64,000 nt of DNA. It comes from Kiloniella laminariae. Lineage in GTDB: Bacteria; Pseudomonadota; Alphaproteobacteria; Kiloniellales; Kiloniellaceae. Both the position numbers and the translations under genes were made by a program. The DNA lies in assembly GCF_027214005.1 (NCBI RefSeq), contig NZ_JAPWGY010000002.1:831860-895859 (forward strand), read 5' to 3'. This document shows, piece by piece, positions 54,592-56,853 of this stretch; the first letter of the stretch is position 1; every line of letters starts with the position of its first letter. Under the pieces are notes generated by a model. It made no database searches and was not told where the DNA came from. It worked only from the letters and a program-made list of their open reading frames with translations.

Positions 54592-54739
54592 AGCCATCCT
54601 GGTTTTGTACAAAGAAAAAAGTAAAAATACATAAAGGCGACAGTTCTTGTTGCGAACAAGACACCAGTACAGATCTTGTCTTTCCTGTTCGATTCAGTCG
54701 ATTGACAAGCACATAAATTCTCAAGTACCTTTGGTTAAA

Positions 54740-54915
54740 TCGTGTGGTTCCCATCCGGGATGAAAAGGGAATTTGGTGCGATCCGTCAGGATTAATTCCA
54801 AAGCTGCCCCCGCAACTGTAAGTGGTTAGATACTGTCAGATAACCCACTGATCCTTCGCCAGGATTGGGAAGGGTGACAGATATTGATAAGCCACGAGCC
54901 AGGAGACCTGCCACG
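54740..54915 (+). promoter_or_regulatory. Cobalamin (adenosylcobalamin) riboswitch
   Basis: The conserved B12-box elements are all present in order: TTTGGTGCGATCC at about 54774, GCTGCCCCCGCAACTGTAAG near 54811, CCACTGATCC near 54845, GGGAAGGGTGA near 54867 and the terminal AGCCAGGAGACCTGCC at 54897-54912. The expression platform includes CCGG repeats around the ribosome site GGAGGGAGG (54950-54958) of the next gene, suggesting translational control, with repression when cobalamin is abundant. A TTGACA at 54702-54707 may be its promoter, but the -10 element is poor. Confidence 0.95.
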
Positions 54916-54965
54916 CTCATTTCAACTTACGACCCGGGCGGGGTGCACCGGAGGGAGGAATTGCC

Positions 54966-55307
54966 ATGGCAATTACGACTTCAGATTTCCAGTCTCATGA
55001 TACCGTTAACACGACCAGCCGCAGTGATGATCCCAAATTCATCATTCATCGCATGATTCTAAGCGACGAATTCAACCATACTCCTGCAGAACACGCCATT
55101 ATGGCCTGGCTGATCAGTCTGCCTTCAGAACTTGATCCAGCTCTTGCAGCCAAACGGCTGGTAAACAAATACGCAGACGACGAAGCCTGCTTTCGCGACG
55201 ATGCCGTCAAAACCCTCAATTTCCTGAGGCAAACAGCAGAGTTCCCGCATGCGCGTCTTTCTTTGTGTAGAAGTAATCACAGAAAGCGGCGACGGTATAA
55301 CGCCTGA
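54966..55307 (+). CDS. Unrecognised small protein downstream of the cobalamin riboswitch
   Basis: The 113-residue frame has an excellent ribosome site (GGAGGGAGG) set eight bases before its ATG and directly follows the riboswitch. I do not recognise a family. The N-terminal 20 residues are Ser/Thr/Asp-rich; the middle, about residues 28-90, looks like a soluble helical domain (FNHTPAEHAIMAWLISLP, then a DPALAAKRLVNKYADDE helix). The C-terminal CRSNHRKRRRYNA turns abruptly basic and could reflect a frameshift or truncation. No signal peptide or membrane helix is evident. It could be a small cobalamin-repressed protein, or a remnant of a longer gene. Confidence 0.55.
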   Translation: MAITTSDFQSHDTVNTTSRSDDPKFIIHRMILSDEFNHTPAEHAIMAWLISLPSELDPALAAKRLVNKYADDEACFRDDAVKTLNFLRQTAEFPHARLSLCRSNHRKRRRYNA

Positions 55308-55548
55308 ACATCACCAACAAGCGGGAGCAGTCTTTTTTCAGCCAAAGCATGAAAGACAACTGCTCCCGTTCTTACCATCTTTGAACAACAGGAAGACGGT
55401 GTTTCTGCTTCTTTTTGGGCGAGGTTCGACAAGGGGAAGAAAATCAAGATAGCTGTTGGGCATTTCTATATCTTTGGCTATACCGGAAGGTCTAACGATC
55501 TCTCGATGATGGATCGGTTCCAGTGACACTCTAGTCGAAGAGATCCTC

Positions 55549-56853
55549 TTGCCAGAACATTACAGGCGTATCTTACTGCTCACCACTCCCCTCATCCTCT
55601 CAAATCTGACCGTTCCCCTGCTTGGCGCTGTCGATACTGCGGTAATGGGGCATCTGCCTGACCCGGCCTACATAGGAGGGGTAGCGATTGGTGGAACCGT
55701 GTTCAGTTTCCTTTTCTGGGGTTTCGGCTTCCTTAAAATGGGGACTGTAGGATTTGCGGCCCAGGCTTTCGGAGCCGGGAACGTCGCAGAACAACGCGCC
55801 GTGTTTCTCCGTCCTCTTGTCCTGGCTCTCATCTTGGGTAGCTTGCTGGTTCTGCTTCAGGTTCCCTTGCTCAAACTCTGCATTGGCCTGCTTGACGGCA
55901 GTAAACAGGTTCAGGACCTGGCTCTGGAATACAGTTTGATCAGAATCTGGAGCGCTCCGGTTTCTCTGGCCAACTATGCGATTATCGGCTGGCTTCTAGG
56001 CAAGGGCGAACCCAAACTCACCTTTGTCCTTCAACTCGTCATCAACAGTGTTAACATCCTGCTGGATCTGGTTTTTGTCGTTGGATTAGGCTGGGGCGTA
56101 GAAGGAGTTGCCCTGGCCACCGTTATTGCCGAGGTCGTCGGCTTTGCCAGCGGCCTAGCCATCATTCTTTCACATCCCCTTTCTATCAGAAACAGACAGG
56201 ACTGGGCAGGAGTTCTGAACCCGGAAAAACTAAAGTCTCTTTTCAAAGTGAACAGGGATATTTTCATCCGTACACTCTGCCTGATCTTCGCCTTTGCCTA
56301 CTTCACCAGAATCAGTGCCAGTTTCGGCGATACAATTCTAGCTGCCAATGCTGTGCTCATTCATTTTCTGTATTTCGCTTCATATGGCCTGGATGGTTTC
56401 GCACATGCGGCCGAGATCACGACAGGGCAGGCAAAGGGCCAAAACAACAACATGGCCTTCCGCTCGGCAGTTAAGGCCAGTTCGCTTCTGGCCATTCTCT
56501 CCGCTGTGATTTTTGCCCTGATTTTTCTTATCTCTGGCCCTTATATCATCAATCTTTTCACGGATATTCCTGAAGTACGTGAGCAGTCCAGACACTATAT
56601 GATCTGGCTTGTCCTTATACCGATAGCAGGTGTGGGGGGATTCCAATTCGATGGTATTTTTATTGGCACGACACAAACGCGCGAACTGCGTAACGCCATG
56701 ATCCAGTCATTACTGATCTTTCTGGGCGCCATCACATTGCTGGTGCCCTTGTGGCAGAATAACGGGCTATGGCTTTCGATGTTGCTCTACATGTCGGCCA
56801 GAGGCCTTACCCTTTGGCGCTATTACCCCGGGTTGGCCAAATCAATCGGGTAA
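55549..56853 (+). CDS. MATE family exporter (DinF-like)
   Basis: The 434-residue membrane protein has twelve predicted helices in two halves and resembles the DinF branch of multidrug and toxin extrusion exporters: LLLTTPLILSNLTVPLLGAVDTAVMGHLPDPAYIGGVAIGG at the N-terminus, the GFGFLKMGTVGFAAQAFGAG loop near residue 62 and SYGLDGFAHAAEITTGQAKG near 280. The TTG start is the only in-frame candidate and has a weak ribosome site. It is 240 bases downstream of the riboswitch-controlled frame on the same strand and could share its control; a hairpin at about 55322-55370 lies between. The substrate is unknown. Confidence 0.88.
   Translation: MPEHYRRILLLTTPLILSNLTVPLLGAVDTAVMGHLPDPAYIGGVAIGGTVFSFLFWGFGFLKMGTVGFAAQAFGAGNVAEQRAVFLRPLVLALILGSLLVLLQVPLLKLCIGLLDGSKQVQDLALEYSLIRIWSAPVSLANYAIIGWLLGKGEPKLTFVLQLVINSVNILLDLVFVVGLGWGVEGVALATVIAEVVGFASGLAIILSHPLSIRNRQDWAGVLNPEKLKSLFKVNRDIFIRTLCLIFAFAYFTRISASFGDTILAANAVLIHFLYFASYGLDGFAHAAEITTGQAKGQNNNMAFRSAVKASSLLAILSAVIFALIFLISGPYIINLFTDIPEVREQSRHYMIWLVLIPIAGVGGFQFDGIFIGTTQTRELRNAMIQSLLIFLGAITLLVPLWQNNGLWLSMLLYMSARGLTLWRYYPGLAKSIG

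Follow-up and report, generated by a model that had tools for sequence, protein, structure and literature searches.

What does a cobalamin riboswitch control when the gene behind it belongs to no recognised protein family? Few gene switches have been studied as thoroughly as cobalamin riboswitches. The target classes given for them in excerpts of PMC3766115 are B12 synthesis, the uptake of B12 and of cobalt, and B12-free isoenzymes. In the window (the whole 64-kb stretch of DNA analysed here) a riboswitch of this type directly precedes a gene for a small protein, which the initial annotation had taken for either a new member of the cobalamin regulon or a degraded one, leaving truncation open. 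To decide between these readings we consider in turn the riboswitch and its expression platform, the coding status of the gene, the distribution of its homologues and the genes with which they share their surroundings.

The covariance-model scan with RF00174 matched the model over its full length (positions 1–189) with 118.3 bits against a gathering score of 31.5 (E 4.8e-29 in the 64-kb window), and this is the only cobalamin riboswitch in the window over that score (Table 1). A complete B12 riboswitch and a strong ribosome site before the small gene had thus been correctly recognised from the letters, whereas the riboswitch had been taken to start at 54740, 12 bases too late. Its 3′ end is separated from the small gene by 36 bases. 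Within the L5 stretch, CCCCGC (54808–54813) is perfectly complementary to GCGGGG (54938–54943) in the loop of the downstream element CCGGGCGGGGTGCACCGG, and the two constitute a candidate L5–L13 kissing loop, a contact described in part of PMC9600662 as sensing ligand binding. Most loci with the riboswitch-gene pair have an element like this one; the loop is a variant one in six loci of family f44 (genus g64) and in G036. No covariation for the L5–L13 pairing was found across the riboswitch loci, because the letters of both L5 and L13 are nearly invariant over them. In a local fold of bases 54926–54975 the ribosome site is partly paired, so that translational control is the natural reading; in the minimum-energy fold of this short stretch the pairing differs from the CCGG stem. 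We propose a cobalamin OFF-switch that would control how the small, helical protein is translated. Scarcity of B12 would leave the ribosome site free, and the protein would be made; with B12 bound, the L5–L13 kissing loop would make the 3′ hairpin close over that site, a direction of control that we infer from the sequence and from published cobalamin riboswitches. The start codon itself lies within a perfect palindrome, AATTGCCATGGCAATT (54959–54974), which is also present in Kiloniella laminariae DSM 19542 and absent from the other seven genomes of the genus.

Table 1. Features of the riboswitch and small-gene locus (positions in the window)
Feature	Position	Strand	Basis or remark
Cobalamin riboswitch aptamer, RF00174, complete	54728..54929	+	Covariance-model scan
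Conserved L5/B12-box region GCTGCCCCCGCAACTGTAA	54803..54821	+	Sequence
Expression-platform element CCGGGCGGGGTGCACCGG, candidate P13–L13	54934..54951	+	3′ arm runs into the ribosome site
Shine-Dalgarno-like GGAGGGAGG	54950..54958	+	Sequence, before ATG 54966
Gene of the uncharacterised 113-aa protein	54966..55307	+	ORF, homologues, dN/dS, model
Strong hairpin 3′ of the small gene	55322..55368	+	19-nt arms, 84% complementary, without a long T run

The gene starts at the first start codon past the preceding in-frame stop, and its frame is intact in all nine searched genomes of the window's genus. Comparison with the nearest named relative, that of K. laminariae DSM 19542 (93% identical protein), gave a dS of 0.52 and a dN of 0.033 (Nei-Gojobori). 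The resulting dN/dS of about 0.06 comes from the sole unsaturated pair, synonymous change being saturated in the other pairs with the window gene. These substitution counts indicate that the small gene is under purifying selection, which argues against a degraded gene and equally against the reservation that codon statistics might reveal a frame that is not translated. Homologues measure 96–125 aa (first set, with the fragment L057 left out) and end at about the same place, so that the frame is not the broken start of a longer gene. Conserved features include D-P near residue 22, A-W-L, D-P-A-x-A-A, L-L-x-x-A-x-x-P-x-x-R-L and an Arg-rich tail. The basic tail, which had raised the suspicion of truncation, is real and conserved: in the first riboswitch-type alignment all 14 sequences end in an Arg-rich stretch. 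Among those columns of alignments A1 (made without L057) and A5 that are invariant or nearly so there is no Cys or His, and a metal-binding protein or chaperone is unsupported for lack of such ligands. An AlphaFold2 model of moderate confidence (mean pLDDT 71.9), built from nine close sequences, is all helical, with helices predicted from residue 23 onwards and a pLDDT below 50 for residues 1–19. A B12-independent isoenzyme was also considered, and a helical protein of 113 residues with no family match gives it no support. Downstream, the strong hairpin is perhaps the transcript end of the small gene; a scan for consensus promoters and terminators on the plus strand of this region returned nothing.

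Sequence comparisons indicate that the small protein is a new conserved family, unrecognised by Pfam and NCBIfam, in line with the earlier failure to place it in any known one. The window protein itself had no match in either collection. With 22 riboswitch-type members, Pfam yielded single-member matches at E 0.086 or worse and NCBIfam none; with 40 mixed members the best Pfam match, of one member, had an E of 0.023. Profile A5 matched no PDB sequence at E up to 1, and a Foldseek search of the model against the PDB gave no match at E up to 0.001 (best 2.4). When the window protein served as the query, 41 of 98 related genomes, its own included, proved to have a homologue at E up to 0.001. At the same threshold, a mixed profile found one in 20 of 385 genomes drawn across the class, and a phylum-wide draw in 7 of 398, all of the same class. 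A riboswitch-type profile found homologues in 15/17, 12/43 and 13/31 genomes of three other orders. Every matching genome in the window-protein, mixed-profile and three-order searches had a single match (E up to 0.001), and no match for two of the homologues was found among plasmid records. Distant relatives in family f30 (L089, L090 and L091; E 5e-6 to 2e-5) lack a riboswitch and follow a glnE-like gene, with an rRNA-methyltransferase-like gene downstream in two of the three (both names assigned by eye). No description of the small gene was found in the open-access literature, and it may stand unnamed in the operon lists that supplement PMC3766115 and PMC2770081. It is likewise undescribed in the excerpted text of PMC9549626, PMC3766115, PMC9600662, PMC8123684, PMC7689651 and PMC2770081.

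The association of riboswitch and gene is recurrent. Of 87 homologous loci compared, 48 have a cobalamin riboswitch ahead of the gene in the same orientation. These come from 48 different genomes in six families of Alphaproteobacteria (13/20, 9/16, 14/20 and 11/15 loci by set, plus G044), and the share is overstated because the profile of the three-order search was built from riboswitch-type sequences. Less biased searches gave 16/41 with the window protein, itself a riboswitch-type query, and 12/20 with the mixed profile, 16 of whose 40 rows are riboswitch-type. The pair is present in all nine genomes of the window's genus and all four of genus g4, and also in members of families f8, f44, f112, f138 and f182. 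For the 39 loci without a riboswitch, 24 were scanned with Rfam (7, 7, 6 and 4 by set) and the other 15 were covered by a motif test and a search with a stricter filter, among the matches listed. Neighbouring genes were called in this analysis and many were named by eye. Together with the cobalt genes that accompany the small gene elsewhere (see below), this recurrence bears out the earlier proposal of a new regulon member, and the family almost certainly belongs to the cobalamin regulon, as judged from conserved gene arrangement. Other RNA elements adjoin some of the pairs. Three f112 genomes have a manganese (yybP-ykoY) riboswitch (L084:1816-1975, L119:1303-1461 and L121:1839-2002) immediately behind the small gene and in the same orientation, and in one of the three (read as L148) it is followed by a gene that we take to be of the TMEM165/UPF0016 family. 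In six f44 genomes (genus g64; L078, L079, L081, L087, L103 and L105) the pair and a serC leader (RF00517) point away from each other.

We regard the position of the small gene, first before both cobW and cbtBA, as the best clue to its function. In family f138 (order of G291), 13 genomes carry the gene. The downstream side was examined in 12 of these, and in 11 of them cobW comes next, with −4 to +28 bases between the stop and the nearest plausible cobW start. A match to TIGR02475 over the cut-off stands beside the small gene in all 11; that of G509, with 519.4 bits against a cut-off of 332.1, is a true CobW. The riboswitch is present in ten of these 11 loci and absent from that of G506, where gene and cobW stand together. 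The genome of the twelfth locus (G497) has cobW beside cobN elsewhere, and in the thirteenth genome (G496), where the small gene lies near a contig end, cobW also stands beside cobN. In three genomes of another family (G441, G450 and G451) the small gene stands before cbtB, with −4 to +1 bases between the two, and cbtA comes after cbtB; in G450 cbtB and cbtA exceed the cut-offs of TIGR02459 and TIGR02458, respectively. By distance and strand, the small gene is thus judged to share operons with cobW in 11 loci and with cbtBA in three; the neighbours running from L151 into L158 were taken from the search that gave the CobW, CbtB and CbtA matches. No match to these three proteins was found in the examined regions outside the 14 loci, the window included. 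Both cobW and cbtBA, genes of the cobalt branch of B12 synthesis, appear in excerpts of PMC8123684 and PMC2770081 as B12-riboswitch targets, and CobW is presented in part of PMC7689651 as a cobalt supplier. Since its relatives share operons with such cobalt-handling genes, the small protein is probably an unrecognised part of B12 making. We incline, if only slightly, to a role in cobalt or corrin supply; that it acts through CobW in particular seems rather doubtful.

The wider genomic context was examined through CobN and CobW. CobN exceeds its family cut-off in 44 of the 48 riboswitch-type genomes. Its co-occurrence hardly discriminates, because within the same orders it is found in 31 of 41 genomes without the gene as compared with 29 of 33 riboswitch-type genomes. 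Neither CobN nor CobW exceeds the cut-offs in G459 and G485, two near-complete genomes that have the pair. G044, also with the pair, has CobN and no CobW over the cut-off, and G518 and G519 have CobN fragments only (these genomes being 82% and 86% complete).

A substantial group of homologues is associated with a different neighbour. A class-I SAM methyltransferase gene lies upstream of the small gene in 28 loci, 23 without a riboswitch and five with one. In many of the 23 it ends within a few bases of the small gene, and in the five (four of genus g4, and G044) methyltransferase gene, riboswitch and small gene follow one another in that order. The tree of 87 rows, in which L106 replaces the duplicate L065 and whose few columns leave the deep forks unsettled, places 32 rows without a riboswitch on one branch (support 82/98), 23 of them with the methyltransferase upstream. 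Riboswitch-type rows occupy several branches, with seven further riboswitch-less rows among them. Profile comparison shows the methyltransferase-coupled proteins to be homologous to those of the riboswitch type (hhalign probability 99.6), and both have the conserved pattern of D-P, A-W-L, D-P-A-x-A-A and basic tail. The former differ in the methyltransferase gene upstream, in DPGG and FPGPAED motifs and in having no riboswitch. The two were not found together in one genome (E up to 0.001), and since each matching genome has one match, both kinds look like one gene under two controls, a view which the five loci with methyltransferase gene, riboswitch and small gene also fit.

These relatives suggest an alternative in which the small protein would assist or regulate a SAM-dependent methyltransferase, or act more broadly on methylation or RNA through its Arg-rich tail, and would stand under the riboswitch in lineages whose need for it grows once B12-dependent methyl transfer (by methionine synthase) breaks down. 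The upstream methyltransferase of 28 loci and the homology of two protein types that were never found in the same genome are what it would explain. We nevertheless think it unlikely: the methyltransferase is absent from all nine genomes of the window's genus, every one of which keeps the small gene (one query, E up to 1e-15), it is present, too, in genomes in which no small gene was detected, and 14 loci couple the small gene to cobW or cbtBA instead. The methyltransferase-coupled type bears on the preferred reading as well, being found also in genomes without CobN over the cut-off (G010, G024, G032 and G045). Because this form occurs without CobN, and because G459 and G485 keep the pair without CobN or a true CobW, the role in cobalt supply is one that we infer.

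The genome of the marine bacterium from which the window comes has seven cobalamin riboswitches, and that of the window is the only one on its contig. Among the other targets are a CbiM-type cobalt transporter and BluB, both over cut-off, as well as CbtBA and a BtuFCD-like ABC importer, which were named by eye. A further cobalamin riboswitch, on contig C33 (L071:6477-6708, minus strand), stands before a glycine betaine monooxygenase-like gene, whose match to NF058607 (662.3 bits) is just under the cut-off of 670. Methionine synthesis is connected with betaine demethylation in marine bacteria in an excerpt of PMC12478193 (2025), and betaine demethylation under B12 control might provide a link to B12-free methionine synthesis. 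None of the seven riboswitches adjoins the cobW-cobN genes of this genome (G000, C22:713334-718160); cob clusters with cobW and without a B12 riboswitch are recorded for three Rhodospirillaceae in part of PMC2770081. An arrangement of this kind would suit a second alternative, that the small protein is a regulator, binding RNA or DNA with its basic tail, which relays the B12 signal of the riboswitch to unlinked genes such as a riboswitch-less cob cluster. The solitary riboswitch on the window's contig, the Arg-rich C-terminal tail and the all-helical model are also consistent with it. However, matches to DNA- or RNA-binding families among the members are confined to isolated, weak, single-member ones, and in the gene-cobW loci a relay would be needless because the small gene and cobW lie in one operon. 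We consider such a relay quite improbable.

Finally, it is most improbable that the riboswitch mainly serves the MATE transporter gene, with the small frame as a leader or remnant: although MATE is next on the same strand in all nine genomes of the genus, 154–254 bases downstream (241 in the window, where its ORF begins with TTG at 55549, agreeing with the gap of some 240 bases in the initial annotation), an opposite-strand gene is next in all four g4 and both f8 loci, cobW or cbtB is next in 13 riboswitch loci, a strong hairpin separates the two genes in the window and the small protein is under purifying selection, the other next genes and the hairpin being what rules out MATE as the main target.

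The best reading overall, which we hold to be a little better than evenly probable, is that of a new family switched off by B12 and acting as an accessory of cobalt or corrin supply. The small protein would serve a mostly aerobic, CobN-type B12 pathway, most likely as an adaptor or regulator beside CobW and CbtBA rather than as a metal binder. According to PMC7689651, a specific protein interaction between CobW and CobNST, the target expected for it, has not been demonstrated; because of this, and of the close coupling of the small gene to cobW, the small gene offers a testable partner for CobW. A more specific proposal, which we put forward as a speculation with little likelihood of being right in full, is that it represents a missing component of late cobalt insertion in Alphaproteobacteria. 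It would be a B12-repressed adaptor that hands cobalt, whether bound by CobW or imported by CbtBA, to the machinery that makes corrin, and the methyltransferase-coupled branch would have been freed from B12 control and recruited elsewhere. Because it recurs behind this switch in six alphaproteobacterial families, and in some of them stands before cobW and cbtBA, the small gene is a concrete candidate for a step of cobalt supply that has so far gone unrecognised.

How does this locus compare with known systems? In the B12-riboswitch operons of cobW and cbtBA, the small gene stands directly before the cobalt genes in eleven (ten with the riboswitch) and three genomes, respectively, whereas the window locus has no adjoining cobalt gene; no such small gene is named for the published operons in the excerpts of PMC8123684 and PMC2770081. 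With other cobalamin riboswitches of RF00174 it has in common a complete aptamer, a candidate L5–L13 pairing and a ribosome site within the expression platform, and it differs from them in a target gene that belongs to no Pfam or NCBIfam family. What is new here is a new target family behind a known switch.
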